Origin: Chthonomonadales bacterium
Lineage (GTDB): Bacteria > Armatimonadota > Chthonomonadetes > Chthonomonadales > CAJBBX01
Direction of reading: 5' to 3'
Assembly: GCA_012517255.1 (NCBI GenBank)
Contig: JAAYVH010000183.1
Location: 1-45,557 of the forward strand
DNA length: 45,557 bases
Below, piece after piece: positions 27,851 to 44,969 of the stretch (position 1 is the first letter of the stretch; each line of letters opens with the position of its first letter). The notes beneath the pieces are model-generated. The model saw only the letters and a list, made by a program, of their open reading frames with translations. It had not been told where the DNA came from and did not search any database. A program made the translations under genes and the position numbers.

Positions 27851-28082
27851 CCAACACTCCTTGCTTTCGCGCGCGGGGAGACAAACGAGAGGGAACGGCT
27901 CCGGGACTCTATGGTACCCCCAACCGACAGGCTGAGAGCCGTGCTCCGATCCATATGACGTCCGTCCGACCTGTTCGGTTCGGTTCATCGCTCCGGGCAG
28001 GGCAGGACGATGCCAGACGAACGCCGAATCGTGGCACGTCGTCATGCCCCACTGCGGAAGGCATTCGCGCGAGGAGGATACG

Positions 28083-29854: not shown

Positions 29855-29868
29855 GCCAGTCGGGGCGG

Positions 29869-30405
29869 TCAGACCTTCTGTGGATTGCGGTAGACCACCA
29901 TCTCGGCGGAGCCCTCCAGGTCTTCGGGATGGTAGCGCGGGAAGGGAAACTCGAGCTGGCGGACGGTGATAGGCGTCACTTTGACATCCACCAGGCCGAG
30001 CGCCACGGCGACTCCATAGATGATCGCTTCAGGGCGAGGCGGGCATCCGGGAATGCAGAAGTCCACGGGCACCACCTTCTCCACCGGACCGATGACGGGA
30101 TAGCTGTCGAACCATATCCCGCCGCCGCATGCGCATGACCCGATGGCGAAGACGAGCTTGGGAGCCGGCATGGCGTCGTAGGCCCGACGGAGCGCCTTTG
30201 CGGTCGAACGCATGGCGGGGCCCTGACAGAGCATCACGTCGGCATGGCGCGGCGAGCCCACGAGCTTGATGCCGAAACGCTCGGCATCGTAGTAGGGCGT
30301 CAGAACGTTGAGCACCTCGATATCGCACCCGTTGCAGCCGCCGCTGTTGGCATGGTAGACCCACAGCGACCGGCCGAAGAGCTTCTTGCAGAGATCACTC
30401 AGCAT
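29869..30405 (-). CDS. hycG: Group 4 [NiFe] hydrogenase small subunit (HycG/EchC/NuoB-like)
   Basis: The 178-aa protein carries the proximal 4Fe-4S cluster next to the [NiFe] site. Ligands are Cys24 and Cys27 (GGCNGCDIE), Cys91 (GSCACGGG) and Cys121 (CIPGCPPRPEAI). It is short, as in Ech and Mbh enzymes, with no export signal and no medial or distal clusters. It is the last gene of the ten-gene operon, 58 bp after the ferredoxin-like subunit. It is closest to HycG and MbhJ types by motif; exact group 4 subtype needs phylogeny. Confidence 0.93.
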   Translation of the reverse strand: MLSDLCKKLFGRSLWVYHANSGGCNGCDIEVLNVLTPYYDAERFGIKLVGSPRHADVMLCQGPAMRSTAKALRRAYDAMPAPKLVFAIGSCACGGGIWFDSYPVIGPVEKVVPVDFCIPGCPPRPEAIIYGVAVALGLVDVKVTPITVRQLEFPFPRYHPEDLEGSAEMVVYRNPQKV

Positions 30406-30463
30406 CGCCCATTGCCCCTATCGTCTGTCCCTGGAAGTCGGCGCGACCTTCCTCGATCACCAA

Positions 30464-30988
30464 TCAGTCGAGATCAATCGGAACGTCCTCCACGAGAGGA
30501 TGGCCATCGAGAAAGGCGGCGGATCGGTAGACCCATCGCTCGCTTTCAATGTCATCAAAGCGGTAGCCTTTCAGTTTCAGGGACTCGAGCGGCGAGCGTT
30601 CGGGGAAGCAGCGACCGCATCGCTGACAGGCGCCCATGAAGATCTCGAGACGCTGGCGCAAGTCCGATATTCTCGGCGAGGCCGTCTCGAAATCGCGACT
30701 CATGGTGATGGCCTGCTCCGGACAGACCTCCGCGCAGCGCCCGCAGTAGGTGCATCGGCGGCCCAGATACTGGAGGATCCGCACTTCCTGACAGAGGTCC
30801 ACGACGAGGATTTCGCGCGCCGGACAGTTGTTGGCGCAACCGGCGCAGCCGATGCAGCGATCGGCATCGAAGATAGGCCGCCCCCGGAAACCCTCAGGAG
30901 TGGGTCGCGGCGCGGCAGGATAGGGCAGCGTCACCCTGCCGGCACGCAGACAGACGAGCGCTTCGCCCAGCTTGGCGCCTAGCGACAT
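30464..30988 (-). CDS. hycF: Hydrogenase 4Fe-4S subunit (HycF/EchF/NuoI-like)
   Basis: The 174-aa ferredoxin-like subunit passes electrons to the small subunit. Two complete 4Fe-4S motifs are at Cys45/48/51/55 and Cys79/82/85/89. A third group, Cys121/124/127 (CQRCGRC), lacks a visible fourth ligand. I chose the ATG at 30988, which has GGAGG 8 nt upstream; an ATG five codons earlier overlaps that site. The preceding 118 bp back to the hycD-like gene are filled by a heptamer array, the only sizeable gap in the operon, and any reading frame through the array (Glu/Arg/Gly-rich) is artificial. Confidence 0.92.
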   Translation of the reverse strand: MSLGAKLGEALVCLRAGRVTLPYPAAPRPTPEGFRGRPIFDADRCIGCAGCANNCPAREILVVDLCQEVRILQYLGRRCTYCGRCAEVCPEQAITMSRDFETASPRISDLRQRLEIFMGACQRCGRCFPERSPLESLKLKGYRFDDIESERWVYRSAAFLDGHPLVEDVPIDLD

Positions 30989-31020
30989 CCCCTGCTCCTC
31001 CATGCCATAGTCCGCACCAT

Positions 31021-31122
31021 CCCTCTCGCCTCTTGCCTCTTGCCTCTCGCCTCTCGCCCCTCGCCTCTTGCCTCTCGCCTCTCGCCTCTCTCCCCTCGCC
31101 TCTTGCCTCTTGCCCCTCGCCT
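31021..31122 (-). repeat. Purine-rich heptamer array after the hycD-like gene
   Basis: In the mRNA sense about 14 units of seven bases (mainly AGGCGAG, AGGCAAG, GGGCGAG) begin at the TAG stop of the hycD-like gene and end about 30 nt before the next ATG. Period and consensus (GCRAGRG) match the array after cysD at 15062-15220. The mRNA would be free of stable pairing and would carry many GAGG motifs. Confidence 0.87.
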
Positions 31123-32055
31123 CTACTTCCCCATTCCTGCCAGCACAAGGGCGACCAGAGCGACGGCCAACAGCGCTCCATAGCGCCGCACGGCCTGATC
31201 TATCCGCACACGGGCATGCGTCGCCGCGATCAGCGTCACCACGATGATCAACGCCACGAGCTTGAGCCAGAAGACCGGCCAGGCCAGCCATAGCGGCCCG
31301 TCTGAGCCCCATGGCACGAACAGGCCTACCGCGATCCCGCCATAGACCACCAACTTCGCCATCTGAGCGAACTTGAACATTGCGAGCTTGGGGCCGGAGT
31401 ACTCGGCGATGGGCCCTTCCATGAGCTCAGTCTCCGCCTCGGAGGTGTCGTATGGCATCCGCTGGACCATCGCCTGAAACGCCAGCGCCATGACGCACAG
31501 GAGGATGAGGCCCGACCAGGCGAAGCCTCCGGAACCGTACACCGACCCGCTCAGCACATCGTCGAGGCGCAGCGACCCGACCTGCAGCGAGCCGGCGATC
31601 AGCATGACCGCCAGAATGGGTTCCAGCGCCATCATCGCCATCATCTCGCGGCTGACGCCGAGAAGCGAGTAGGTTGAGCCCGCCGACAGCCCGGCGAGCA
31701 AGGTGCTGATCCCGCACAGCGTGATCACATAGACGAGCACCACGACATCGGTCCATGGCCCAAGCGGAGCCCGCAGGCCCATGGGGGTCATGCACGCCGC
31801 CGTCAGGACGGCGGCCGGAGCCAGAAGCGCCGCGAGGCGCTGCATCACGGGGGTCTCGCCGCTTTCGACGTCCTCTTTGCCGAGGAGCTTCATCAGGTCA
31901 AGGTACGGCTGGATGATGGGAGGACCCTGCCGCGACTGAATGCGCGCCGTCACCTTGCGCAGCAGCCCCTCCGCCAGCGGAGCCGCGAGGATCACGCACA
32001 GTACATTGACAGCAGCGATACCCACCTGACGCAGCGCAAGCCCCCAGTCGCTCAT
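31123..32055 (-). CDS. hycD: Hydrogenase membrane subunit (HycD/EchB/NuoH-like)
   Basis: The 310-aa protein has about eight helices and anchors the hydrogenase to the membrane, forming the quinone-site-like cavity region in the complex I family. Conserved loops are visible: RIQSRQGPPIIQPYLDLMKL near the start and SEAETELMEGPIAEYSGPKL in the middle. The ATG at 32055 overlaps the stop of the large-subunit gene (ATGA). Its TAG stop is followed at once by the heptamer array. Confidence 0.93.
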   Translation of the reverse strand: MSDWGLALRQVGIAAVNVLCVILAAPLAEGLLRKVTARIQSRQGPPIIQPYLDLMKLLGKEDVESGETPVMQRLAALLAPAAVLTAACMTPMGLRAPLGPWTDVVVLVYVITLCGISTLLAGLSAGSTYSLLGVSREMMAMMALEPILAVMLIAGSLQVGSLRLDDVLSGSVYGSGGFAWSGLILLCVMALAFQAMVQRMPYDTSEAETELMEGPIAEYSGPKLAMFKFAQMAKLVVYGGIAVGLFVPWGSDGPLWLAWPVFWLKLVALIIVVTLIAATHARVRIDQAVRRYGALLAVALVALVLAGMGK

Positions 32056-33755
32056 CGGCAATGAACCTCTTGAGTCGAGACTCCAGGCGCTGGCGATGCC
32101 AGGGTCGCGATCTCCTCCGGTGACCACATCTGCAGCTTCCCCGTCGCTATCTCCACGGTCTCGAGACGGTCGGTGCACGAGAAACAGGGGTCAATGCTCC
32201 CGAGGGCGATCGTCATGTCTGCGAGACGCTGGTCTCGGATCATTGAGGGGACGCCCTGAAGGTTCTGATAGGTTGGCGCTCGCACGCGCCACCGGCGCGG
32301 TCGGTTGTTCTCGCCGGTGATGAGGAAGTGATGGCTTTCGCCTCGGGGCGCCTCCACCGATGACAGGCCGATTCGTCCGACGGGAAGCATGTCGTCGAGC
32401 GGCGATTGGAGCGGTCCCGGTTCGAGATGATCCAGGCACTGCTGGATGATCCCGACGGACTCGAAGACCTCTTCCATGCGGACCAACACGCGGGACCACA
32501 CGTCGCAACCGGATGCCGTGATAACGCGGAAGTGCACACGGTCATAGGCGGCATAGGGGTGATCCTTGCGCACGTCCATGGCAACGCCCGCCGCCCGGGC
32601 CACCGGCCCGATGATTCCCATCTCCTTCACGAGAGCCGGGTCGGCCACTCCTATCCCCTCGGTGCGGCTCTGGATGTTGCGGTCGCGCGACACAGCCTTG
32701 ACCACATCCCTCCATTCGGATGTGAGCGTGCCGAGCACCCCTCTCAACTCGTCGGCAATCTCGGGCGTGATGTCGTGGCGCACGCCTCCCACCAAACAGA
32801 GTCCATAGGTCTTGCGGTTGCCGCAGATCCGTTCCGCGATCCACATGAGCGGCTCACGGATTCGGAAGCTCTGCATGAACAGCGTGTCGAACCCGACGAT
32901 ATGACACGCAAGGCCGACCCACAGCAGGTGACTGTGGAGTCGCTCGATTTCCAGCATGACGGTGCGGATCAGCTCGGCGCGAGGCGGCGGCTTGATGCCG
33001 ACGGCGCTCTCGACGGCCTGACAGTAGGCCACGCTGTGCACGCAGCCACAGATGCCGCAGATGCGTTCCGCCATGAACGGGATGTCGTTGTAGCCCAGGA
33101 CGGACTCGGCGAGCTTCTCGATGCCCCGATGCGCCATGAAGCCCCGGTACTCGCACCCGCGGACCATTTCGCCCTCGACGTAGAGCCGGAAGTGCGCAGG
33201 CTCGTCGAGCGTCGGATGAAATGGGCCGAACGGCACCACGGTACATCCCTCGGGAGGATCGTCGAAGCGGAAAGGCCGGTCCTCGTCGTAGTCCTCCGGC
33301 ACGGTGTCCCACGCGAAGTCTTTCCGCAGCGGATGGACGCCCTCGGGCCAGCCGTCGGGCAACACAAGCCGCTTGAGATAGCGATGCCCCTCCGGCTCAA
33401 TGCCCACAAGGTCCCGGATCTCGCGCTCGGCCCAGCTTGCTGCCGGCACGTCGGGGGTGATGCTAGGAACGGTCGGGTTCTCCGCGGGGACGTCGGCGAG
33501 GATGCTGCACAGCACGTGGTCGCGATCGAATGCGAAGTCATGGGCTACCATGAAGCTGCCCGAGTAGGGACGATCATCGGCGCCGATGCTGATGACATAC
33601 CGAGCGTCAAGGTCGCGGAACACGGTCCTGCAGATCGAGGGCAAGGCCCCGCGGTCCACGAAGAGATACAGCCGCGTGTCGCTCGGGATGTCCGCGCGTT
33701 GAATGCCCTCGCCGTGGGCCGCCCTGAGCCCGTTCAGAATCTCACGTGGGCCCAT
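32052..33755 (-). CDS. hycE: Group 4 [NiFe] hydrogenase large subunit fused to NuoC-like domain (HycE-like)
   Basis: The 567-aa protein joins a NuoC-like domain (about 1-150) to the [NiFe] catalytic domain, as in HycE. The metal ligands are in RICGICGCVH (Cys233, Cys236) and DPCFSCTDR (Cys524, Cys527). A C-terminal extension of 37 residues follows Arg530, in keeping with removal by the maturation protease encoded three genes upstream. It should reduce protons or oxidise hydrogen on the cytoplasmic side. The gene overlaps its upstream neighbour by 14 bp and its downstream neighbour by ATGA; GGGAG precedes its ATG. Ni-insertion genes (hypA-F) are not in this window. Confidence 0.95.
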   Translation of the reverse strand: MGPREILNGLRAAHGEGIQRADIPSDTRLYLFVDRGALPSICRTVFRDLDARYVISIGADDRPYSGSFMVAHDFAFDRDHVLCSILADVPAENPTVPSITPDVPAASWAEREIRDLVGIEPEGHRYLKRLVLPDGWPEGVHPLRKDFAWDTVPEDYDEDRPFRFDDPPEGCTVVPFGPFHPTLDEPAHFRLYVEGEMVRGCEYRGFMAHRGIEKLAESVLGYNDIPFMAERICGICGCVHSVAYCQAVESAVGIKPPPRAELIRTVMLEIERLHSHLLWVGLACHIVGFDTLFMQSFRIREPLMWIAERICGNRKTYGLCLVGGVRHDITPEIADELRGVLGTLTSEWRDVVKAVSRDRNIQSRTEGIGVADPALVKEMGIIGPVARAAGVAMDVRKDHPYAAYDRVHFRVITASGCDVWSRVLVRMEEVFESVGIIQQCLDHLEPGPLQSPLDDMLPVGRIGLSSVEAPRGESHHFLITGENNRPRRWRVRAPTYQNLQGVPSMIRDQRLADMTIALGSIDPCFSCTDRLETVEIATGKLQMWSPEEIATLASPAPGVSTQEVHCR

Positions 33756-35700
33756 CGGCGTCTCCCTTCCGTGCGGCCTCGGGCCTTCTGCCCGCAGTGA
33801 ACAGTCCCTTCACTTCGCCGTAGAAGCCGTGAGCGGAGTAGCGGTTGCTGTCGGCTTCGTCGGCATAGCCGCACAGCCACGGGGAGTCGGCGCGTCGCCG
33901 GGATGCGCCCATCCGCGAAACTCCCCACACCAGCGCCATGATCAGGCCCATGGCCCCGGCGATCACTGCGGGAACGAACGCAGCCTGCCCGCTTGCCGTC
34001 GCCACTCCCAGCGTCGCGGATGCCTGCACCCCCAACGCGCGACCCAGGATCGCCCCCAGACCATCGTGGCTCACCGCGAGGGCTCGCGTTACAAACGACA
34101 GACCTGCGGCCGGAGCGACGCCTACTCCTACGCAGAGCACAGCGAGGAACCATTGGGGCACGAGCATGCTCACGGGCGCTTCCAGGCTGCCCGCAAGGTC
34201 AGACGACGATCCTGTCGGCCTCTGCGCCCGACGCTCCCGCGCCCGCTGGGCAACCCATGCGCTCGTTCGAGACAGGAAGCTGACGCCGAAGAACTTCACG
34301 AACGAAGCCAGCGTGAGCGCGCTCGTCAGCACGGCGATAGCGCCGCACACGGCGAGGTAAGGCGCATGGGGGTTGCCCTGAATGGCCGCGGCATAGATGG
34401 TCCACTTGCTGACGAAGCCGCTGAACAGCGGCACGCCGGCAATCGAGCACGATGCCACGAGAGCCGTCAGCGCCGTCAGGGGCATGTAGGTCCACATCCC
34501 GCCCAGACGATTGAGGTCCTGCGTGCCTGTCGCGGTCAGCATGGAACCGGCATTGAGAAAGAGCAGCGCCTTGAAGACCCCGTGGTTGAGAACATGGAGC
34601 GTGGCTCCCAGAAACGCGAGGGTGGCCGCCTCCCGCGCTCCCGGCCCGTCGGACGCGAGGAGCGCCATGCACGCTCCTGCCCCCAGCAGAATGTAGCCCA
34701 CCTGCCCGATGCTGTGAAACGCGAGCAGTCGCTTCGATTGCTCCTGCCGCAGAGCCTGATAGGTGCCCGTCAACAGAGTGACCGTGCCGATGAGCGCCAC
34801 GATTGCACCCCATGTCGCCATGGGATAGTCGGGCAACGCGCCTTCGGGAACGAGCCAGACGAAGTATCGGAGCAGGCCGTAGACCCCGGTCTTAATCATC
34901 ACGCCGGACAGCATGGCGCTCACGGGCGACGGCGCCGCGGGATGCGCATCGGGCAGCCAGACATGCCCGAAGGGCCACATTCCCATTTTGATGCCGAAAC
35001 CGACGAGGAACAGCCCGAATGCGGTGGCGGCCAGGGCGGGCTTCTGCGCCAGAACCAGCGGAAGATTCGCGCTGACTGTGGCGAAGTCGTACTTCAGCCC
35101 GGGCGCATCCCCGACACGCGATCCGGCCACCGCCAGCATTTCCGCACCGATCATCGTCGCGACGCAAGCGATCTGCATCATGACCAGATAGCGCATCCCG
35201 GCGCGCGCGCTGGCCTTGCTCCGGTACTCGTAGCGGATCAGCAGGTAGCCCGGAATCGTCATGAGCTGCCAGAAGATGAAGAAGAACCACATCATGTCGG
35301 TGGTGCTGACGAGGCCGTACATCGCCGCAAGGAACAGCAGCACGAAGGGGTAGTAATGGGCCACGCCGTAGTCGGCATAGTGATGCATGTAACGCACCGA
35401 GTGCATGGCTGCGGGAACCGAGATCAGCGCCGTCAGGGCGACGAAGATGGCCGACAGACCGTCCACGTGGAGGCGCAAGTCGAACCCGAGGCGCGGCATG
35501 GCCCAGAAGGCTTTCGGATGTTCGGAAGGCCCTTCGATGAGGACCATCGCCACGGCGGAAAGCGCCAATCCGGCGCTGACCAGCGTGACAAGAAACGCTA
35601 TCCATCCTGCCGTGGTCTTGCATCGGGAGGCGAGCGGCGTTATCAGCGCGCCTGCTACCGCAACGGCGATCGCTGCCACTATGAGACGTTCGGCTGTCAT
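33742..35700 (-). CDS. hycC: Hydrogenase antiporter-like membrane subunit (HycC/EchA/NuoL-like)
   Basis: The 652-aa protein has about 14-16 helices of the proton-translocating antiporter family. GFGIKMGMWPFGHVWLPDAH with Lys238, MIKTGVYG with Lys270, NHGVFKALLF and SGFVSKWT carry the usual lysines. In helix 5 the sequence is FIFWQLMTIPGYLL with Gln145 where most family members have a glutamate needed for proton pumping. It is the only antiporter-type subunit here; no NuoK/HyfE or Mrp genes are present. The start overlaps the protease gene (ATGA). Confidence 0.93.
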   Translation of the reverse strand: MTAERLIVAAIAVAVAGALITPLASRCKTTAGWIAFLVTLVSAGLALSAVAMVLIEGPSEHPKAFWAMPRLGFDLRLHVDGLSAIFVALTALISVPAAMHSVRYMHHYADYGVAHYYPFVLLFLAAMYGLVSTTDMMWFFFIFWQLMTIPGYLLIRYEYRSKASARAGMRYLVMMQIACVATMIGAEMLAVAGSRVGDAPGLKYDFATVSANLPLVLAQKPALAATAFGLFLVGFGIKMGMWPFGHVWLPDAHPAAPSPVSAMLSGVMIKTGVYGLLRYFVWLVPEGALPDYPMATWGAIVALIGTVTLLTGTYQALRQEQSKRLLAFHSIGQVGYILLGAGACMALLASDGPGAREAATLAFLGATLHVLNHGVFKALLFLNAGSMLTATGTQDLNRLGGMWTYMPLTALTALVASCSIAGVPLFSGFVSKWTIYAAAIQGNPHAPYLAVCGAIAVLTSALTLASFVKFFGVSFLSRTSAWVAQRARERRAQRPTGSSSDLAGSLEAPVSMLVPQWFLAVLCVGVGVAPAAGLSFVTRALAVSHDGLGAILGRALGVQASATLGVATASGQAAFVPAVIAGAMGLIMALVWGVSRMGASRRRADSPWLCGYADEADSNRYSAHGFYGEVKGLFTAGRRPEAARKGDADGPT

Positions 35701-36185
35701 GCGTCCGCCTCGCGCGCGGCATCGGCCAGCACACAGGCCAACGAGTCCACCGATGCGGCAACCTCACGCGTGAGCGCCGCGCCCGGAGCCATGGAGCCCG
35801 GCTGTATGCCAAGCAGCCATGTCTTCACGCCCGCATCGGCAAGGCGCTTCGCGAGCAGCCCGAGGCTGAGCTTGTGCGTAGAGACCTGAGGATAGCGCGC
35901 CACGATCTGGTCGCCCGCCATGAGGATGACCGTCCCCGGGGCCTGCCCGCACTCGACGGCATCGGCGAAGACAACCGTGTCATGCGCACAGGATGCAGCG
36001 AGGTGCCGCTCCGGCGATATGCCTGCGACGATGACCGACAGCATCGAGGATCTCGATGCGACGCGCTGCGCGACGATCTCGGCGAGTCGCACGCCGCAGC
36101 CGTCATCGCCGAACATGGGGTTCCCGAGTCCCATGAGCAACGTCCTGCCGCGGCAGCAGTCGCGTATCGCGCTAGATGTCTTCAC
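35697..36185 (-). CDS. hycI: Hydrogenase maturation protease (HycI/HyaD family)
   Basis: The 162-aa endopeptidase removes the C-terminal tail of the large subunit after nickel insertion. Nickel-sensing residues are expected in GLGNPMFGDDGCGVRLAE (first Asp), FADAVECG and the histidine of STHKLSL, all visible. The start is a GTG at 36185, overlapping the end of the gamma-subunit gene by 14 bp. Its place between the diaphorase genes and the hydrogenase genes supports one transcriptional unit; the large subunit has the 37-residue tail it would cut. Confidence 0.92.
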   Translation of the reverse strand: MKTSSAIRDCCRGRTLLMGLGNPMFGDDGCGVRLAEIVAQRVASRSSMLSVIVAGISPERHLAASCAHDTVVFADAVECGQAPGTVILMAGDQIVARYPQVSTHKLSLGLLAKRLADAGVKTWLLGIQPGSMAPGAALTREVAASVDSLACVLADAAREADA

Positions 36186-37017
36186 CGAGCTTCCTGATCT
36201 GTTCGTAGGTGAACACCGGCCCGTCCACGCATACGTAGGCGACGCCGATGCAGCAATGGCCGCACTTGCCCACCCCGCACTTCATGTAGCGCTCAAGCGT
36301 CGAGACAATCCTCCCCTCAGGCAACCCCATGGCCAGCAGGTCCTTGATGACGAAGCGGAACATGATCGGCGGCCCGCACACGAACGCGACCGTATTGCCA
36401 ACAGGCACCGTAACGCCCGGCAGTTTGAACAAGCTGCCAACCACGCCCACCGGTCCGTCCCACGTTTCGTCCGCACGGTCCACGGTGCGGTAGCACTCCA
36501 CGCCCTCGGCCGCAGCCCAGGCATCCATGGCAGTGCGGTACATGAGCTCTCGCGGCGTCCGCGCGCCGTAGAAGACCTGAATGCGCCCGTACCTCTGCCG
36601 ATGGTGCATGGCGTACACTATGCACGAGCGCAGCGGGATGATCCCGATGCCTCCCGCGACGAACACGAGGTCCATGCCCTCATAGGCGTCCATCGGGAAG
36701 CCGTTTCCGTAGGGTCCGCGCACGCCGAATCCATCGCCGGGCTTCAGGGCGTGCAAGGCGTCTGTGACGCTGCCGACCTTGCGGACGGTGAAGAACCGCT
36801 CGCGCTCGGTTGGGCTAGGAGGCAGCGAGGCCGGGAACTCGCCTGCTCCGATGACAGACACCTGCGCGAACTGACCCGGGAGGAAGCCTGCGAAACGCTC
36901 ATCGTCGGCAGGGTCCTCGAAGTGCCAGTAGAAGCTCCGCACGTCGGCAATCTCGTCCTCGACACGATCGAGGATTGCGGGCCGCGGCAGATAGACGTTG
37001 GCATCGAGTCCGGTCAT
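36172..37017 (-). CDS. hydG: Sulfhydrogenase gamma-type FAD/NAD(P)-binding subunit
   Basis: The 281-aa protein is an oxidoreductase of the ferredoxin-NADP-reductase type, like the gamma subunit of sulfhydrogenases and group 3b hydrogenases (not the radical-SAM HydG of [FeFe] enzymes). An FAD domain (FLPGQFAQVS) and an NAD(P) domain (VFVAGGIGIIPLRS, FVCGPPIMF) are followed by a 2Fe-2S cluster with Cys247, Cys252, Cys255 and Cys263 (CGVGKCGHC). It would move electrons between NAD(P)H and the Fe-S chain. Its ATG overlaps the beta-subunit stop (ATGA). Confidence 0.92.
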   Translation of the reverse strand: MTGLDANVYLPRPAILDRVEDEIADVRSFYWHFEDPADDERFAGFLPGQFAQVSVIGAGEFPASLPPSPTERERFFTVRKVGSVTDALHALKPGDGFGVRGPYGNGFPMDAYEGMDLVFVAGGIGIIPLRSCIVYAMHHRQRYGRIQVFYGARTPRELMYRTAMDAWAAAEGVECYRTVDRADETWDGPVGVVGSLFKLPGVTVPVGNTVAFVCGPPIMFRFVIKDLLAMGLPEGRIVSTLERYMKCGVGKCGHCCIGVAYVCVDGPVFTYEQIRKLGEDI

Positions 37018-38126
37018 CGGTCGGCCCTCACAGGACCCTGAGGCTTGGCGACCTGCGACTGGAATGCCTCGGCCAGCGAGCGACGGATCATCTCGACGAC
37101 CGACGGCATGCCGATGTCGCCATGGCATACGGCCGCGCAACGTCCGCACCCGACGCACGCGACGCTTAGCTCACGCTGCACGAAGTAGTGCGAGAGCTTC
37201 CGGAAGAAGCGCCGGTTGCGCCGATCGTGGACGGCCCTGCGCGGGTTGAAGCCGCCGGCCATGCGGGTGAAACCGTTGAGCGCGCACGAGTCCCAGACGC
37301 GGACACGCTCGTAGGTGTCGGGGCCGATGGCGCGATCGGTGACGGTGAAGCAGGTGCACGCCGGACAGACGAACGTGCACCCGCCGCATTCGAGGCACCT
37401 GTTGCCTATCTCCTCCCAGGTCTTCTCAGGGATGGAATCCGTCGAGACGGCTCGCACCGCCGCCGTGAACCAGCTCGTGTTGGCACGGAAGCTCCTGCGC
37501 GCCTGGGCCAGCACGTCACGACGTCGCGCAACGTCCGACTCATGGGCACGAGCGAAGATCGGCTCGGAGAACAGCTCTTCGCCCTGCGGCGTGCCCGCCA
37601 CGGCCATGAACGAGTCGCCGAGGTCCACAAGCTGCAGATCGAAGCCGTCTCGGGCGGCAGGCCCCGTGTCGGCGCAGACGCAGAAGCAGTCGGGACCGAT
37701 GTCCTGTTCCGGGTCCGTGCAGGCCATGTTCACCAGGAACATCCCCCGACGCAGACTTTCGTAGTATACGTCGCGATACTCGCGGCCAAGGTAGAACCGA
37801 TCCAGATGCTTGATGCCCGCAAGGTCGCACGATCGTATGCCGAAGACCGCCAGCCGCTGAGTCTCGGCCTGAGCCTCGGCCTCAAAGCGTCCGTTCACGT
37901 TGCGGAGCACCATGAGCCGCTCGATGTGAGGCAGCACGTAGCGCTTGGGCGGATAGTAGGGGTTCGGGACATGAAGCGCAACCGCCGACCGATTGTCGTC
38001 GGTCACGAGGTCGAACCAGGTGTCACGGCCACGCCCCATGAACGGCGCGACGACGTCGTAGCCTCGGGCGCGCAACAGGTCCACGATGCGCAGGACATCA
38101 TCTCGGGCGACGAGGCGGGCTCTCAT
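37014..38126 (-). CDS. hydB: Sulfhydrogenase beta-type 4Fe-4S subunit
   Basis: The 370-aa protein matches the beta subunit of group 3b hydrogenases and AsrA of sulfite reductase. Two ferredoxin-type clusters sit at Cys244/247/250/254 and Cys324/327/330/334. Extra cysteines occur at Cys100, Cys136, Cys147/149/151 (CFCVC) and in CPACTCF. It is expected to link the flavoprotein gamma subunit with the rest of the complex. In this operon it may stand in for HycB, the usual link between a molybdoenzyme and a group 4 hydrogenase. The ATG overlaps the molybdoprotein stop (ATGA). Confidence 0.92.
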   Translation of the reverse strand: MRARLVARDDVLRIVDLLRARGYDVVAPFMGRGRDTWFDLVTDDNRSAVALHVPNPYYPPKRYVLPHIERLMVLRNVNGRFEAEAQAETQRLAVFGIRSCDLAGIKHLDRFYLGREYRDVYYESLRRGMFLVNMACTDPEQDIGPDCFCVCADTGPAARDGFDLQLVDLGDSFMAVAGTPQGEELFSEPIFARAHESDVARRRDVLAQARRSFRANTSWFTAAVRAVSTDSIPEKTWEEIGNRCLECGGCTFVCPACTCFTVTDRAIGPDTYERVRVWDSCALNGFTRMAGGFNPRRAVHDRRNRRFFRKLSHYFVQRELSVACVGCGRCAAVCHGDIGMPSVVEMIRRSLAEAFQSQVAKPQGPVRADR

Positions 38127-40198
38127 GGTGCGAGCCTCTCGATACGGACTGCCACGTAGGGACCGCCGTTACGCACGTGGCCGCGTATCTTCTCCTGCAC
38201 CGCCCGAACGAAGAACGGGACGAAAACGGCCCCGCTGCGCACCTCAGGCGTGACGCGTGCCGCCACCTCGACGCACCCGACACCCGAGCACAGCCTGATG
38301 GTCTCCCCGTCGCGCACGCCTAGATCGGCTGCATCGCTCGTGTTGACCTCGACAAACCCTTGCGGGTAGTCAAGCAGCAGAATGCGGTACTCACGCTTCA
38401 GGGTCTCGCTGTGCTGGATGAGCACGTTCTGGTGCCAGTAGTAGCTCGAGTTGCCAAAGACAAGCGTCAGGGGGTAGGCGGGATCTCGCATCGATTGAGA
38501 TGGCGGCGGGAAGGGCTTCATGGCGAATCGCCTGTTGCGGTTGGCAGTCACGCCGGTACCGTCATCGTTCTCGACGAAGAGGGTCTGCGTGCCCAGCGGC
38601 CGGTCGTGGGTGCAGGGCCACTGCCTGCCATACTCGCGAGTCAGGTTTTCGTGCGATGCGGCGGCGTATTCGGGCACAGCACGCCCGATCTCTGCCATCA
38701 CATCCGCCGAGCCTGCATAGTTCCAGTCGGCTCCCAGGGCGCGGGCAACGCGCACGATCTGATGCCATGCCGGTTCGGTGTCGCCCGGACCGTCGGTCAC
38801 CTTGCGTGCGAGCTGGATTCGTCGGTCGGCGCTCGTGAAGGACACCTGCTCCTCGCCGAACGCCGTGGTGGGCAGCACCACATCGGCATAGGCGGCAGTC
38901 TCGGTCATGAAGAGGTGCTGGGCGACCACGAAATCGCATTGTCGGAGCGTCGCTTCCGCATCGCCTTCGAACGCCGTCCGCGCCGGGTCGTAGCGGCACA
39001 GCCAGATGGCGTGGACGTCATGCCCGTCACGATGCAGCACCTGCCGGGCCTTGAGGCCTCGACGGTCAGGCAGACGGACGTCCCACAGGCGCTCGCATCG
39101 CTCTCGGGCTTCCGGATCCTCGACAGGGCCGTATCCGGGCAGGCGATCGGGCAGCATCCCCATGTCGCACACGCCCTGGAGATTGTTGTGCTCCGTTAGC
39201 GCGTAGATGCCGGCTCCCGGTCGGCCAATGTGGCCGGCCATGAGCGCGAGGTTGACGGCCGCGCGGATGGTCTCGGCGCTCCGCGCCTCGATGCCCGTCG
39301 AGTAGAGCAACGCCGCGGCGCCGGCCTCTCCGAACGCGACGGCGGCCCGCTCGATGAGGTCGGCCTCGACGCCGCACTCCTCCGCAGATCTCGCCACGTC
39401 GTAGAGCAGCGCGGATCGAGCCAGCTCCTCGAAGCCCGAGCATCGGTCGCGCACAAAAGGCCGCCGCACAAGCCCACGGTCAAGTAGAACCTTGGCCATG
39501 GCGCCGTAGAGCGTCGTCTCGGTGCCGGGCCGGATATGCAGGAAGATGTCGGCGCTCTCCGCCAGTCGGTGGCGGCGCGCGTCAATCACAATCAGTTTCG
39601 CGCCGTTGAGCTTGGACCGGAGGACAACACCGCCTACGGTGGGGATCTGTCGGCCGAGATCAATGCCGTCCACCACGATGACATCGCTGACCGCCAGATC
39701 GCCGATGGAGCCCGTGGTGGCCGGCGCGCCGAGCATGTCGAGCAGAACGTTGATCGAGTTGTTGCAGTAGACGCCCGTGCCATGATCCACGTTGTTTGTG
39801 CCGATGACAGCTCGGGCGAGCTTCTGAAGGAGATAGCTCTCCTCGTTGCCGCATCGAGGCGAGTTGAGAAACGCCAGCGAGTCGGGACCATACCGGTCCC
39901 GAACGGCGCGCAGGCGCTCGGCGATGAATGCCACCGCCTCGTCCCATGAGACGGGGCTGAAGTCTTCGGTGCGCGCGGGCGGATCTCCCGGCTTCCGATC
40001 CCGCCGAATCATGGGCCGATCGAGCCGATCGGGTGATCCGGCCACTTCGTGCACATGCCAGCCGCGCAGGCAGATTCGGCCTCGATTGGTCGGGTGGGAC
40101 ACGCTGGGATACGCTCCGACCACACGCCCGCGCGACGTCTCAAGGTACAGTCCGCACCCTGCGCCGCAGAACGCGCATGTGGTCAGACGATGGCCCAT
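38123..40198 (-). CDS. FdhF-like molybdopterin oxidoreductase with altered active site
   Basis: The 691-aa protein follows the plan of formate dehydrogenase H: a 4Fe-4S cluster (Cys8, Cys11, Cys15, Cys43) and three molybdopterin domains. Strong landmarks are LLQKLARAVIGTNNVD and HNNLQGVCDMGMLPD. Aligned from memory without gaps to E. coli FdhF, the Sec/Cys position is Tyr144, the next histidine is Cys145, the catalytic arginine is Thr335 and the electron-transfer lysine is Arg45. Formate oxidation is therefore doubtful; Cys145 might still bind molybdenum, or the protein may be a NuoG-like scaffold. There is no signal peptide. It is the second gene of the operon, 21 bp after the cyclic-nucleotide-binding gene. 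Confidence 0.88.
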   Translation of the reverse strand: MGHRLTTCAFCGAGCGLYLETSRGRVVGAYPSVSHPTNRGRICLRGWHVHEVAGSPDRLDRPMIRRDRKPGDPPARTEDFSPVSWDEAVAFIAERLRAVRDRYGPDSLAFLNSPRCGNEESYLLQKLARAVIGTNNVDHGTGVYCNNSINVLLDMLGAPATTGSIGDLAVSDVIVVDGIDLGRQIPTVGGVVLRSKLNGAKLIVIDARRHRLAESADIFLHIRPGTETTLYGAMAKVLLDRGLVRRPFVRDRCSGFEELARSALLYDVARSAEECGVEADLIERAAVAFGEAGAAALLYSTGIEARSAETIRAAVNLALMAGHIGRPGAGIYALTEHNNLQGVCDMGMLPDRLPGYGPVEDPEARERCERLWDVRLPDRRGLKARQVLHRDGHDVHAIWLCRYDPARTAFEGDAEATLRQCDFVVAQHLFMTETAAYADVVLPTTAFGEEQVSFTSADRRIQLARKVTDGPGDTEPAWHQIVRVARALGADWNYAGSADVMAEIGRAVPEYAAASHENLTREYGRQWPCTHDRPLGTQTLFVENDDGTGVTANRNRRFAMKPFPPPSQSMRDPAYPLTLVFGNSSYYWHQNVLIQHSETLKREYRILLLDYPQGFVEVNTSDAADLGVRDGETIRLCSGVGCVEVAARVTPEVRSGAVFVPFFVRAVQEKIRGHVRNGGPYVAVRIERLAP

Positions 40199-40219
40199 TG
40201 CGGCCTCAGCCTCCGGAGA

Positions 40220-40705
40220 TCACCACGTTCGAGCCTGACGTTCGAGGAGCTGCCGTCGCACGGCATAGAGCCGCTGATCCAGGAGCATGGCGAAGCGCTT
40301 GAGCAACTCATAGCCGAGTTCGGGGTTCGTCTCGCACTTGGCGCGGAGGCTCGGGCCATCCAGCGTAATCAGGCGCGAGTCCGTCGTTGCCCTCGCATCG
40401 AGCCGCCAGCGATGGGGCGGCACCAGTACCGACCACCCGAAGACGTCGCCTCCCGCGAGACTCTGTACGGCCACCGCCCCATAGTGCAGGCTGAAGGCCT
40501 CCAGGACCACCGAGCCTTCGATGATGAGGTAGAAGCGATCGGCCTCGTCGCCCTCGCGAAAGATGGTCTGGCCCGCGTGCACCTCTACCTCCGACGCCGT
40601 ATCGGCGATCGCCTCAAGATGCGGGCGCGGAAAGTCCGTGAACAGCGGGTGCCGAGTCAAGAGATCGTTGAGCGATGAAGCGGGAGAAGGTTTGGTCTTC
40701 GTCAT
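40220..40705 (-). CDS. Cyclic-nucleotide-binding domain protein without DNA-binding domain
   Basis: The 161-aa protein is a single Crp-like sensor domain (REGDEADRFYLIIEGSVVL, then GGDVFGWSVLVPPHRWRLDA) with a C-terminal helix and no helix-turn-helix. Proteins of this kind with FGWS and PPHR motifs are often encoded beside beta and gamma subunits of hydrogenases. It may sense a nucleotide and control the complex by contact; that is inference. AGGAGG lies 6 nt before its ATG and a promoter is seen 46 bp further upstream. It opens the operon. Confidence 0.85.
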   Translation of the reverse strand: MTKTKPSPASSLNDLLTRHPLFTDFPRPHLEAIADTASEVEVHAGQTIFREGDEADRFYLIIEGSVVLEAFSLHYGAVAVQSLAGGDVFGWSVLVPPHRWRLDARATTDSRLITLDGPSLRAKCETNPELGYELLKRFAMLLDQRLYAVRRQLLERQARTW

Positions 40706-40750
40706 CGCAGCCCTCCTTGCTGCGCCAGTCGTCGGCGGCGCTGCCAGAGT

Positions 40751-40779
40751 ATCCTATCACGGCTCAGCCAAAAAAGCAA
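40751..40779 (-). promoter_or_regulatory. Promoter of the hydrogenase operon
   Basis: On the minus strand TTGCTT (40779-40774), a 17-bp spacer and TAGGAT (40756-40751) form a sigma-70-like promoter. Transcription would start near 40744, leaving a leader of about 40 nt. The -10 equals that of the epimerase promoter (18995-19023). It is back to back with a plus-strand promoter. Confidence 0.55.
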
Positions 40780-40795
40780 GGTTTCTGTCGATACT

Positions 40796-40824
40796 TTGTG
40801 AAATCACGCGCAGAGTATTATGAT
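40796..40824 (+). promoter_or_regulatory. Divergent promoter with GTGA/TCAC inverted repeat
   Basis: TTGTGA (40796-40801), 17 bp and TATGAT (40819-40824) suggest a plus-strand promoter for the 40958-41851 gene. The inverted repeat GTGA-AA-TCAC (40798-40807) overlaps its -35 box and lies near -58 of the hydrogenase promoter, where an activator could sit. The region is the most AT-rich in the window. Confidence 0.5.
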
Positions 40825-40957
40825 AGTGCCGGCGCCGAAACACGCTCATCAGGCCCGCAGACTCCATGTCCCGTGAATGCCGTCACAGATTGAGCAGCAG
40901 AGGCACACAGGATTCGGCGCCGTGAAACCTCCGGTTCGCGAAGGCGGTACTCAGGAT

Positions 40958-41851
40958 ATGCGACTCGAACAAGCCACGGCCCCGGATGCGAACGCCCTCT
41001 CCGCCGACGATGAGCGTCTCGCCGGCGACGCGCTGGCCGCCCTGACGCGCCTTTCGAGGAACTCCTACTGGAAGGCCAGATTCGGGGCGAGCATAGCGTT
41101 CTTTCCCGGCGTTCTGGCGGGGATCGGCCTGTGGGCCATTGCGTTTGCCGCCCTTCGCCCGTTCACCAGCGACGATCTGGCTGGTCTCGTGGGCATGATC
41201 GGCTACCTTGGGGGCGTGTTCGGAGGCGGCTACCTGGGGCTCCGCGCCTACGGACGCCGCCGCCGCAGGGAGATCGCGAGCGCGTCGGCTCACGCCGATA
41301 TCCGCTCGATTCGCCCTCTGGCGGATATGGTGCGCGGCAACGTATGGGCGGGGGCGCTGTGGCTGCTGCCGACGCTGCACGCCTGCGTGGCCGCCATGCA
41401 GCGCATTCTGGATGCCGTAACGCCCGCCGATCGGGACAAGCTGCGGGACGACGGCGATCTGGCCGGGCTGCGGTCAATCCTGACCAGTTGCGCCAACCAT
41501 TACGGATGGTTACAGGCGAGCATCTTCCCCCCGGCGTTCGTGCGCACGGCCCTGCGCTCCCTGGCAGTGCTGCAGGATCGTCAGGGCGAGCGACTGGCGG
41601 AGCGTCTCACACGCACTATCGGCGTGGGTCGAAAGGCCGCCGAAGTGCGGCGCATCGCCGAGGAGGAACTTCCGGCGCTGCGAGAGGCCGCCGAGCGTGC
41701 CAAGGAGCGTACGGAGCTCCTGCGCCCGGCGGAGAATCCCCATCGTGCCGAGGACACGCTTCTCCGGCCAGCCGAGGCGAGCCCGAGCGGGGACGTGGAA
41801 CTGCTGGTTCGACCGGCGGGCGGCGAGGACGAACAGTCGTCTGTGGGCTGA
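40958..41851 (+). CDS. Hypothetical membrane protein with two TM helices and coiled tail
   Basis: The roughly 297-aa protein is not recognised. After a polar N-terminus it has two close membrane helices (IAFFPGVLAGIGLWAIAFAA and LVGMIGYLGGVFGGGYLGL). A basic stretch YGRRRRRE follows, then a helical domain of about 150 residues rich in Ala, Arg and Leu. The C-terminal tail carries repeated LLRPAE-like motifs (ELLRPAENP, TLLRPAEAS, LLVRPAGG). The start is unclear: ATG 40877, GTG 40922 and ATG 40958 are all possible and none has a strong ribosome-binding site. It is divergent from the hydrogenase operon; a functional link is not shown. Confidence 0.65.
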   Translation: MRLEQATAPDANALSADDERLAGDALAALTRLSRNSYWKARFGASIAFFPGVLAGIGLWAIAFAALRPFTSDDLAGLVGMIGYLGGVFGGGYLGLRAYGRRRRREIASASAHADIRSIRPLADMVRGNVWAGALWLLPTLHACVAAMQRILDAVTPADRDKLRDDGDLAGLRSILTSCANHYGWLQASIFPPAFVRTALRSLAVLQDRQGERLAERLTRTIGVGRKAAEVRRIAEEELPALREAAERAKERTELLRPAENPHRAEDTLLRPAEASPSGDVELLVRPAGGEDEQSSVG

Positions 41852-41860
41852 GGGAAAGCT

Positions 41861-41888
41861 GCGCCCCTGCGTGCGAAGGCAGGGGCGC
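41861..41888. terminator. Bidirectional terminator-like hairpin
   Basis: GCGCCCCTGC and GCAGGGGCGC pair over 10 bp around an 8-nt loop between two convergent genes (stops at 41851 and 41923). No T-run follows on either strand, so it is either a U-less terminator or a relative of the dispersed GTAGGGGC-type hairpins. Confidence 0.5.
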
Positions 41889-41922
41889 GCGACGCGGCTC
41901 AGCCCGCGGTGTCGGCCGCTCC

Positions 41923-43953
41923 TTACGGCGCGATGAGCCGGATGTAGTCCAGCCCGAACATGTACTTAACGACCGCCTTCTCGTTGGTGCCCACGATTTC
42001 GACCACAAGCTGGTGCTCACCGGCGGTGAGGTCATGCGTACCCAGATCGACTTCCCCCGAAGGGATAACGCCATCGTTGAAGAAGTCCATGGGCTCGCCG
42101 ATCTTCTTGCCGTCGAGCCAGAGTTGCACAATGCCGTAGTCTATTGCCTTGGTGAACTGGGCCTTGAGGGAGTAACGGCCTGCCTTCTCGACAGGGAGGG
42201 CCAGGGTGAGCTTGTCGCCCGGCTTGCCTTCGGTCCACCAGACGTGGGCCCCCTTGCTCCATTCGCCGTCAAACCCGCCAAGTTCCTGGCGTTGGGTGAC
42301 GCCGCCGGTTCGCGCCAGCACCTTCATGTCTTCTCCCTCGATCGCTCCCTTGGCGACGAACGGCTCCGGCAAGGTTAGGTCGAAGTAGCCCAGACGTTCG
42401 CTCATCGGCTGGGGCGCATAGGGATCCCGGCCCCCCGACATCAGGTACCAGTAGGCCGTGGCGGCATACAGGGTAGGGCGGCTGTTGGGGAAGTACTTCT
42501 CAATCGTGCCGGTAAAGGACGTCAGGAAGGGGACGTTGTCCGTCACATGCCAGCGGTTTACCGAGGCGTGCCCCTTGTTGTTGCCGCTGTTGAACGGCTG
42601 ATTGTGATAGGCGTTGAAGAAGAGCGCGGGATTGCACCACGCATACCCGAAGTAGTCCTCCGAACCTGTGCCGAAGGTCGAGGGAAACTTCTCGCCGTCC
42701 ACATAGAACATCTCGTCGCCCTCGCCCCACCATCCGCCGCGCGGGTTCCAGACATGCAGGTTGACTCCGACGAAGCGGCCTGCGCCCTCCGTGGTGAGCA
42801 TGGTCCACTCGATGCCTCGCCCCTTCTCGGTCGGGTTGAATGCGTCGCGATGCCACTTGGCGTGGAACCGGGCGTAGTTGGCTGCAGGCCTCGGCAGAGG
42901 AGCATGCGTGACCTCCGCCTTAACGCGGCGGGCAGCGGGTCCATCATTGGCGATCTCGACGACGGCATCGCGGGCGAACGGCATGAACCAGAACGAGTAG
43001 AAGCCGTCTCTCGTCATTCCCAAGGGCAGCGACTTGTAGTGGTTGATGCCCGGAGCGGTACCGAAGAAGTCGCCGAGCGGCGCCCAGACCTGGGCCTGGT
43101 CGGCACCGTCGAAGGTGATCTTGAGAGCGAGCTCTCGCATCGCCTGAATCTCCGCGACGCGATCGTTGAGCCCTTCCACCTTCACGCGCAAGGCCGTAAT
43201 GGCGCGCTCGCCCTTCAGTCTTGCCACGGTCATCGTGCGTCCCGAGCGAAGAGACGCCGAGGCTCGCGCGGTGCGCTGCCCGGGCCTGACGCCGGCAGGA
43301 TCGGTGCCGAGCCTGTTCGTCAGGAAGTCATTCGCTTCCTCAAGGGCGGCTAGCTCTTCCGTCTTCAGGTTCCGGGTGAAGGTGGGCAGCGCCGTGTCCT
43401 TGGGATATGTCGTGTACGTGAAGTGGAAATAGGCGCCCCACTTGTCGTCCGCATCAATCCGGCACGACTTCTGGAACGGGATGGGCACATAGAGGTTCTT
43501 CCCGCTCGAGGCGTCGTGAACAAGCGGGAGATGGACGAAGGGCCACTGGGTCCCGTCGAAGTACTGGCTGAACTTCAGGTCAACGGCGGGTTCGGTCTGC
43601 CCGTCAAGGTAGATGCGCACCCGTCCTTCCTGCGGCGCCGCCGACCAGATGCGCCAGATAACTCCCGGTCCCTCGATCTCGGCGAAGACCTGTTTGCCGT
43701 TCTCGCGCCGGATGATGCCGTGACCGTCGCCGTTGGCGTCCCAGCTAATGTACTCGCCGGTTGTCTCGTCAAACCGGCTTGCGCGGTCGTAGCTCGACCA
43801 TTGCGCGCACTTAACCCCCGGCTTGGGTGCGAGTGCGAGGCGCTCGAGATCCGTCAGTTGCTTGATCAGATCCAGATAAGTGTAGGTTTCGGCACGACAG
43901 ACTCCTGCCGCCAGCATCAGACATGCGAGCATCAGGGCCGGCTTTCGAACCAT
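41923..43953 (-). CDS. Secreted GH172 (DUF2961) glycoside hydrolase with C-terminal binding module
   Basis: The 676-aa protein has a signal peptide (residues 1-21, ending CRAE). Its DUF2961/GH172 region has Glu411 in WWGEGDE and Glu432 in GTGSEDY, again 21 residues apart like the catalytic pair of the family. It is almost twice as long as the cytoplasmic relative at 265-1359. The extra parts include a helical insert (about 190-260) and a C-terminal beta-sandwich (about 555-676, YSLKAQFTKAIDYGIVQLWL) resembling carbohydrate-binding modules. It probably cuts furanoside polymers outside the cytoplasmic membrane. The ATG at 43953 has GGAGG 7 nt upstream. Confidence 0.87.
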   Translation of the reverse strand: MVRKPALMLACLMLAAGVCRAETYTYLDLIKQLTDLERLALAPKPGVKCAQWSSYDRASRFDETTGEYISWDANGDGHGIIRRENGKQVFAEIEGPGVIWRIWSAAPQEGRVRIYLDGQTEPAVDLKFSQYFDGTQWPFVHLPLVHDASSGKNLYVPIPFQKSCRIDADDKWGAYFHFTYTTYPKDTALPTFTRNLKTEELAALEEANDFLTNRLGTDPAGVRPGQRTARASASLRSGRTMTVARLKGERAITALRVKVEGLNDRVAEIQAMRELALKITFDGADQAQVWAPLGDFFGTAPGINHYKSLPLGMTRDGFYSFWFMPFARDAVVEIANDGPAARRVKAEVTHAPLPRPAANYARFHAKWHRDAFNPTEKGRGIEWTMLTTEGAGRFVGVNLHVWNPRGGWWGEGDEMFYVDGEKFPSTFGTGSEDYFGYAWCNPALFFNAYHNQPFNSGNNKGHASVNRWHVTDNVPFLTSFTGTIEKYFPNSRPTLYAATAYWYLMSGGRDPYAPQPMSERLGYFDLTLPEPFVAKGAIEGEDMKVLARTGGVTQRQELGGFDGEWSKGAHVWWTEGKPGDKLTLALPVEKAGRYSLKAQFTKAIDYGIVQLWLDGKKIGEPMDFFNDGVIPSGEVDLGTHDLTAGEHQLVVEIVGTNEKAVVKYMFGLDYIRLIAP

Positions 43954-44103
43954 GGATGGCCTCCGTTCGGTAGTGATCCATGGTGCAGTTCGACCTGAGC
44001 CGCGGTCATTCCTGCCTGGACACGCAACCGCTGCGAATCCCCCGGCGCACACGTTGTCGCCGCAAGCGTCGCGCCTCCATCATCCCAGCACGCACTCCTC
44101 GTT

Positions 44104-44167
44104 CGTCATCCTCGCATGTCGTTGGCGAGGACCCATCTCCTGGATTCCCGCCTTCGCGGGAATGACG
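44104..44167. repeat. Nested palindrome ending in ATTCCCGC/GCGGGAAT
   Basis: CGTCATCCTCGC pairs with parts of GGCGAGGA downstream. ATTCCCGC-CTTC-GCGGGAAT (44144-44163) is a perfect 8-bp hairpin followed by GACG, closing the outer GTCAT/ATGAC ends. Hairpins with ATTCCC and GGGAAT arms are widespread interspersed repeats in bacteria. Confidence 0.65.
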
Positions 44168-44177
44168 GTAATGGGCA

Positions 44178-44266
44178 CACCGGCGGCAATGGTAGGGGCA
44201 CGTTGCAACGTGACCCTACGGGACGGCGCACCGGCGGCAATGGTAGGGGCACGTTGCGACGTGCCC
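44178..44266. repeat. 51-bp tandem unit with GTAGGGGCACGTTGC hairpins
   Basis: Two units begin CACCGGCGGCAATGGTAGGG at 44178 and 44229, exactly 51 bp apart. Each carries a palindrome: the first, 44192-44219, has 14-nt arms GTAGGGGCACGTTG with a single mismatch; the second (44243-44266) has lost its CTAC end. This hairpin type shares the GTAGGGGC start with the composite element. Confidence 0.7.
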
Positions 44267-44297
44267 TTTCGGCGTCGCGGTCCGCTCCGATGTCGTC

Positions 44298-44515
44298 GGG
44301 GCGTACCAGCCGAACGACCGCCATCCCGACGAACATCGCCCGCCGGTGATTGAGCCGGCGCGAAGCGCCGTGTCGAAATCAAGGCGGGCTGCGAGCGCAC
44401 CACGTAGGGGCGTATCAGCCGGACGACCGCCATCCGGACGAACATCGCCCGCCGGTGATTGAGCCGGCGCGAAGCGCCGTGTCGAAATCAAGGCGGGCTG
44501 CGAGCGCACCACGTA
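44298..44515. repeat. 109-bp tandem repeat, two full copies plus a truncated third
   Basis: GCGTAYCAGCCGRACGA recurs at 44301, 44410 and 44519, a period of exactly 109 bp. Copies 1 and 2 differ at only a few positions. The third follows the unit for about 20 bp and then becomes the composite two-hairpin element. Each full unit contains a nested hairpin (GCCCGCC...GGCGGGC around GGCGC-GAA-GCGCC). There are no variable spacers, so it is not a CRISPR array. Confidence 0.85.
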
Positions 44516-44692
44516 GGGGCGTATCAGCCGGACGATCAGCGCCGCAAGAACGCGGCACGAGGCCACATCCGGCTGGTACGCCCTTGCCCGACGAACGTTA
44601 CCGAGAGCGCGATCCATGTCATGGGCGAACCAACCGCGCGTTGCCGCGTCCCTCTTCACGGTGGTGCCGCTCGGCGGTTGATACGCCCCTAC
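44513..44692. repeat. Composite two-hairpin interspersed repeat, copy B
   Basis: It starts GTAGGGGCGTATCAGCCGG, whose 15-bp arm pairs (one mismatch) with CCGGCTGGTACGCCC ending at 44583. The second palindrome spans 44623-44689 (GGGCGAACCAACCGC to GCGGTTGATACGCCC), followed by CTAC. Order and ends are the same as at 9443-9596, while the spacers differ, which suggests that structure rather than sequence of the middle is kept. Confidence 0.78.
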
Positions 44693-44892
44693 GGCGGTGC
44701 GGGCGCTTCGTCGGTGTGCCCTGAAGGGGCGCGATCGTTCAGGCCGGGGCGTCAGTTCCGGTCACACGACGGGCGCTACCACCCTCTCCCCTAACGTTGG
44801 GGATGGGGAGGAAACGCGGCGCTCCATGCCCGGCCTCCAGGGCCGGGTTGGGCGCGCCTCACCCCATCCCCATGCAGCCTCCCTCCGCGCTC

Positions 44893-44936
44893 CACGTCAT
44901 CGCGAGCGCAGCGACGCGATCCCGAACAGGATGCCC
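44893..44936 (-). repeat. Dispersed repeat, copy 3 (reverse orientation)
   Basis: CACGTCATCGCGAGCGCAGC continues to CGATCCCGAACAGGATGCCC and is the reverse complement of the unit seen at 14950-15052, without the insertion found there. The shorter copy at 45-78 lacks the GGGCATCC end. Confidence 0.65.
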
Positions 44937-44969
44937 GGCCCTGCCGGTTGGGGCCTCAGGGATCCAATA

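Follow-up and report, generated by a model that had tools for sequence, protein, structure and literature searches.

The window analyzed here is the whole 45,557-nucleotide stretch of contig JAAYVH010000183.1 from the Chthonomonadales bacterium assembly GCA_012517255.1. It encodes on its minus strand a conserved nine-gene hydrogenase operon whose first gene is a homolog of the formate dehydrogenase (FDH) alpha subunit FdhF, here named FdhL. FdhL is probably (roughly 0.8) an FDH alpha subunit that was stripped of its molybdenum cofactor (Moco) and kept as an iron-sulfur or scaffold subunit of a membrane-bound group 4-type [NiFe] hydrogenase. In the window organism FdhL almost certainly carries no molybdenum cofactor, judging by residues and gene content. 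In the alignments, the metal ligand and catalytic residues were gone from every sampled member of the operon family, and the [4Fe-4S] and [NiFe] ligands remained. The operon is best read as coding for an energy-converting hydrogenase linked to NAD(P)H, and not for a formate hydrogenlyase (FHL); its genes are of known kinds in a new combination. The gene and its altered site are located as follows:

38123..40198, minus strand: FdhL (691 amino acids), an FdhF/MopB-family subunit without the Mo ligand and with [4Fe-4S] ligands C8, C11, C15 and C43; identified by TIGR01591, PF00384, PF04879, PF01568, PDB alignments and a fold match to 1fdi.
39764..39769, minus strand: the Tyr144-Cys145 codons at the Sec140-His141 position, placed by alignment (Tyr144 TAC at 39767-39769; Cys145 TGC at 39764-39766).

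FdhL belongs to the MopB/DMSO reductase superfamily by its Pfam domains, its PDB sequence matches and its top Foldseek match (1fdi, E = 8e-50). The top PDB chains in a phmmer search were formate dehydrogenases: FdhF of the hydrogen-dependent carbon dioxide reductase (HDCR; 7qv7, 7.5e-120) and E. coli FdhF (1aa6, 3.7e-106). The TIGR01591 profile (formate dehydrogenase alpha) scored 534.7 bits, under its equivalog cutoff of 666. An earlier note, made from the sequence alone, had placed Tyr144 and Cys145 at E. coli Sec140 and His141, Thr335 at Arg333, and Arg45 at Lys44. All of these placements were confirmed. The phmmer alignment with 1aa6 crossed the loop without a gap, pairing Tyr144 with Sec140 (X), Cys145 with His141 and Thr335 with Arg333, and the same loop register was found against HDCR FdhF and the F420-dependent FDH (9t1s). 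The ungapped register was kept in a multiple alignment of FdhL with 60 canonical FDHs, in which positions 144 and 145 were Cys and His in 60/60, position 45 was Lys in 60/60 and position 335 was Arg in 60/60. Thus, where an FDH has Cys or Sec followed by His, along with Arg333 and Lys44, FdhL has Y144-C145, T335 (ACG, 39194-39196) and R45 (CGC, 40064-40066). The N-terminal cluster cysteines 8, 11, 15 and 43 were all present, as the earlier note had said of the Fe-S ligands.

The pterin-binding segments, which that note had described as kept, were only partly so. FDHs and assimilatory nitrate reductases, which share the cofactor and differ in substrate, both conserve a set of 64 columns. The window clade has lost 13 of the 64, among them K45, C144, P207, G336, T581, R583 and H663. 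Thr at the Arg333 position was rejected as a sign of inactivity on its own because assimilatory nitrate reductases also carry Thr there.

The ten closest relatives of FdhL (loci L003 to L012) lay in the same gene order, one of them (L009) broken off by a contig end. In these ten and the window protein the loop HGxGVYCNNSINVLL was invariant. All ten had been retrieved via the peptide VYCNNSIN, and for that reason strict conservation of GVYCNNSIN was discounted as a sign of a ligand. A profile hidden Markov model (HMM) search across 291 genomes from the window's phylum found no close form of FdhL in the other 290, the same-genus genome included. It also revealed shorter FdhF homologs, which flanking sequence located in HydB-HydG-HycI-Hyf operons. 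Searching 396 Acidobacteriota genomes recovered a further close ortholog (L122/L141), plus others. Fourteen Acidobacteriota regions were retrieved: twelve contained HydB-HydG-Hyf operons and two contained control FDHs, which had Cys-His and no HydB, HydG or Hyf neighbors. Eleven of the twelve operons carried hydrogenase genes; in L143 no gene was detected beyond HyfB.

Altogether, 36 FdhL sequences came from HydB-HydG-Hyf operons. At position 144 they carried Tyr (16), Gly (9), Gln (4), His (2), Asp (2), Trp (2) or Glu (1), and none had Cys or Sec (0/36). The cluster cysteines were present in 36/36. The [NiFe] ligand motifs were intact wherever HycE was readable (only the first motif could be read in the fragmented L069), and HycI was found in most operons. 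FHL-like loci with no HydB or HydG (L077 and L078) kept Cys-His. A tree placed all canonical FDHs on one side of a branch and all sampled FdhL sequences on the other (support 99/97; 100/99 in a second tree), and whether FdhL forms a single clade depends on the root. L141, found with the whole-protein HMM and 55% identical to the window protein, reads RGGSLHRVNTID at the loop, that is, His-Arg. The family thus does not conserve Tyr-Cys as a metal site, and the check for conservation of the residues at codons 39764-39769 in orthologs, as proposed earlier, came out negative family-wide.

Some homologs differed from this pattern. L083 (G208:C162) was a canonical Cys-His FDH with HydG- and HydB-like neighbors and no Hyf genes on its 10-kb contig; it could possibly be a working, ancestor-like module. 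L079 (G252:C26) encoded a 906-amino acid FDH homolog that kept the ligand Cys and had Glu in place of His141 (GTCETP). Scans of IMG/VR yielded two distinct FDHs, and a scan using another FDH as the query gave no match. Three IMG/VR contigs classed as viral (L084, L085 and L086) carried full-length FDH alpha genes with intact Cys-His; these could be host DNA wrongly assigned to viruses, or a metabolic gene that the viruses carry.

Searches that were positive in control genomes, E. coli and B. subtilis among them, found no MoeA, FdhD, MoaC or MoaA C-terminal domain in the window genome, which is rated at 100% completeness and 1.7% contamination. By gene content, then, the organism would neither make nor insert the cofactor of enzymes with a Mo- or W-bis-pyranopterin guanine dinucleotide site. 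FdhD is essential to E. coli FDH activity (PMC10609526). All four families (MoaA, MoaC, MoeA and FdhD) were likewise not found in four other window-clade genomes (G291, G292, G294 and G295), and FdhD was not found in any of the 11. MoaA and MoaC were not found in five genomes of a second branch (G035, G226, G227, G234 and G235; 97-99% complete), nor was MoaC in three Acidobacteriota genomes (G951, G1007 and G833). HypD, required for [NiFe]-site maturation, was present in 11/11 window-clade genomes. Thus, [NiFe] maturation was kept where the molybdenum machinery was not.

The earlier note had offered two ways in which FdhL might hold a metal: Cys145 reaching the site from a shifted loop, or Tyr144 acting as a new ligand. 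FdhL would then still bind Mo- or W-bis-molybdopterin guanine dinucleotide and catalyze another reaction. The shift was worth testing because compensating one-residue gaps in the phmmer alignment with B. subtilis ForC (8rqz) pair YC with YC. The YC loop is also invariant across the eleven window-clade proteins, and AioA and IdrA are examples in which a protein ligand is dispensable (PMC10100899). Against these points, ten of the relatives were retrieved by VYCNNSIN itself, the motif-independent L122/L141 has His-Arg, and other members carry G, Q, H, D, E or W at the ligand position. Because the window genome has no MoaA, MoaC, MoeA or FdhD, an absence shared by four relatives, and position 144 varies, a Tyr or Cys ligand is not the answer. 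Neither form of the proposal was supported, and metal binding of this kind is very unlikely.

The missing Moco genes would say nothing about FdhL if the contig were a binning contaminant. Consistent with this, the nearest FdhL sequences were in Verrucomicrobiota and Acidobacteriota, and no close ortholog was seen among the 290 other genomes sampled from the phylum. However, the window DNA matched a same-genus genome at 69-84% identity over many stretches of 9-28 kb, G+C was uniform, and absence of Moco genes recurred independently in other carriers. The contig is native to the lineage, not foreign, and contamination is a highly improbable explanation. A short stretch at about 17531-17711 matched dozens of sites in several same-family genomes at ~72-92% identity and may encode the conserved N-terminus, of prepilin type, shared by a large family of pseudopilins.

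The nine genes of the operon lie in the order FdhL, HydB, HydG, HycI, HyfB, HycE, HycD, HycF and HycG, all on the minus strand. The eight genes that follow FdhL were:

37014..38126, minus strand: HydB/ShyB/AsrA-like 4Fe-4S dicluster subunit (NF040829, 158 bits; best PDB match the P. furiosus sulfhydrogenase 1 beta subunit, 9nez_B).
36172..37017, minus strand: HydG/ShyC/AsrB-like subunit with flavin adenine dinucleotide (FAD)/NAD(P)H and 2Fe-2S sites (PRK08345, 252 bits; 9nez_C, 212 bits; GGIGIIP, CGPP and the 2Fe-2S cysteines).
35697..36185, minus strand: HycI-type [NiFe]-hydrogenase maturation protease (PF01750 and TIGR00072, above cutoff).
33742..35700, minus strand: HyfB/NuoL-like antiporter-type membrane subunit (PRK06521, 374 bits).
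32052..33755, minus strand: HycE-type fused NuoC/NuoD [NiFe] large subunit (best PDB match E. coli FHL HycE, 7z0s_E, 442 bits).
31123..32055, minus strand: HycD/NuoH-like membrane subunit, start inferred (PF00146).
30464..31003, minus strand: HycF/NuoI-like 2x[4Fe-4S] subunit, start inferred (PRK08222, 106 bits; cluster motifs).
29869..30405, minus strand: HycG/NuoB-like small subunit (PF01058 and NF005012, above cutoff).

The HydG open reading frame (ORF) opens at 37158, and the start at 37017 was taken from the overlap with HydB and the ortholog length. HydB contained two 4Fe-4S motifs. In the HycE translation both [NiFe] ligand pairs were intact (RICGIC and DPCFSC) and identical in orthologs. 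With CxxC...H and DPCxxC ligands, HycI, NuoH- and NuoL-like membrane subunits, and HypD in the genome, the encoded enzyme is predicted to be a group 4 [NiFe] hydrogenase.

Canonical FHL (group 4a), with FdhL oxidizing formate, is the reading that homology alone would give: HycE is nearest to E. coli FHL HycE, FdhL is itself FdhF-like, and a peatland acidobacterial fdhF/hyf operon, which may or may not be of the present type, has been called FHL (PMC6018796). An FHL requires a competent FDH feeding the hydrogenase. Here Sec140, His141, Arg333 and Lys44 were all replaced and TIGR01591 scored below cutoff; the Moco pathway and FdhD were not found in the genome, and no HycB-type gene was seen in the operon, which has HydB and HydG. 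The sole other FdhF/MopB-family member in the genome was NuoG, leaving no other FDH homolog. These results bear out the earlier statement that the operon is not an FHL, and formate oxidation by FdhL is extremely improbable.

In the proposed NAD(P)H-linked hydrogenase, HydG, through its FAD and 2Fe-2S center, would oxidize NAD(P)H or reduce NAD(P)+. Electrons would pass from HydG to HydB and on to the [4Fe-4S] cluster of FdhL, which would dock the HydBG module onto HycF, and would then travel through HycF and HycG to the NiFe site of HycE. This transfer may be coupled to ion movement via HyfB and HycD, making the complex possibly an ion-pumping, NAD(P)H-linked hydrogenase. The place of HycB, for which no gene of its type was seen, is most likely taken by HydB and FdhL. 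The FdhL cluster would lie either on the electron path or off it, like N7 of complex I. If it lay off the path, FdhL would be purely structural and HydB would pass electrons directly to HycF. The complex I counterpart N7 is off-pathway (PMC9474812), and HydB has two 4Fe-4S motifs of its own. Against a purely structural role, electrons enter the E. coli FHL relay at the FdhF cluster (PMC9474812), and the four cluster cysteines of FdhL were kept in 36/36 sequences despite the decayed metal site, which suggests that the cluster is in use. A purely structural FdhL is possible, and clearly the less likely arrangement. The earlier suggestion that the protein had left molybdenum chemistry and become an electron conduit thus held for the loss of chemistry; conduction, as distinct from pure structure, is a suggestion from homologs. 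A more speculative proposal, which we consider unlikely, is a separate origin of a complex I-like machine, in which an FHL-type hydrogenase acquired an NAD(P)H module, the FDH was gutted to a NuoG-like subunit, and in the window clade its pocket was refitted for another small molecule or a Tyr/Cys redox relay.

Several points weigh against a cofactor-free electron-transfer or scaffold subunit. MoaA, MoaC and MoeA were present in 6 of the 11 window-clade genomes, so cofactor binding there would be possible by gene content. Gene absences were read from metagenome-assembled genomes (MAGs; completeness unreported for G291-G300), though several pathway families were missing jointly. The FdhL branches are long, so their grouping may owe something to long-branch attraction. 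An AlphaFold model built from 11 close sequences reached a mean predicted local distance difference test (pLDDT) score of 50; adding two IMG/VR FDHs and three distant homologs (16 sequences) raised it to 72.6, a moderate model that is unreliable (below 50) exactly at the metal-site stretches 142-147 and 336-350. Finally, the electron transfer through FdhL, its donor and direction, and the ion coupling are all drawn from homologs.

The operon shares parts with several known systems. In E. coli FHL (FdhF-HycBCDEFG), electrons pass from the FdhF cluster through HycB, HycF and HycG to HycE (PMC9474812). The window operon resembles it in its HycE, its HycD-, HycF-, HycG- and HyfB-type modules and an FdhF-family subunit with one [4Fe-4S] cluster, and differs in the loss of FdhF catalytic residues, HydB and HydG instead of HycB, and a genome without Moco genes. 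HydB and HydG had their best PDB matches in the beta and gamma subunits of a soluble group 3b hydrogenase, P. furiosus sulfhydrogenase I (HydBGDA, 9nez); in the window, the genes of this module stand together with those of FdhL and a membrane hydrogenase of group 4 type. Thermococcus onnurineus Fdh3 (PMC8965080) likewise joins an FDH catalytic subunit to an NAD(P)-binding flavoprotein via Fe-S subunits, but Fdh3 has Cys and W and oxidizes formate. A further comparison is the group 4 hydrogenase region of Saganbacteria RX5A (PMC6349859). It combines a group 4 [NiFe] hydrogenase with asrA/asrB, with antiporter subunits and with a "molybdopterin" oxidoreductase that HMMs call FDH but that could not be classified, and differs in also having cooF. 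Likened by description only, it is probably of the same kind as the window operon. The passages describing it contained no mention of metal-site loss, and no report of such loss in this operon type was found in the literature searched, which mostly did not extend to subscription journals.

Complex I NuoG/Nqo3 offers a parallel: an FDH-derived MopB domain without Moco that can retain a [4Fe-4S] cluster and connects with a flavin/NADH module and with a core of NuoCD/HycE type. FdhL has no counterpart of the additional ferredoxin-like region at the NuoG N-terminus. FdhL scored 535 bits with TIGR01591 against 99 bits with the NuoG profile TIGR01973 (cutoff 470), and a separate NuoG is encoded in the genome. 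FdhL probably arose separately from NuoG.

Directly upstream of FdhL and outside the conserved operon was one further gene:

40220..40705, minus strand: cyclic-nucleotide-binding-domain protein (PF00027).

This protein had no evident DNA-binding domain, and no homolog was found in the other FdhL loci searched. Because of a 7-bp/35-bp tandem repeat (CTCGCCTCTTGCC-like) at 31022-31124, between HycD and HycF, the HycF ORF is lengthened at its upstream end by a peptide of repeats that is spurious. An array of a similar kind, GCCCCTC x18, occurred at 15072-15199, and a 109-bp direct repeat (2.2 copies, 96% matches) at 44294-44535. No Rfam elements were found in 28000-45557.

The loss of catalytic residues is a warning that fdhF-hyf operons in MAGs cannot be assigned to formate hydrogenlyase by homology alone. 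The superfamily members listed without Moco in PMC10100899 are NuoG/Nqo3, ActB and FhcB. FdhL would add to these and would alone among them belong to a complex I-superfamily [NiFe] hydrogenase, where the NAD(P)H module it joins is a different one. For FHL and complex I, the FdhF-like subunits have been argued to have joined independently (PMC9474812), and FdhL would offer a comparison case for the conversion of a catalytic molybdoenzyme into an electron-transfer or scaffold subunit, with relatives at differing stages of pocket decay.

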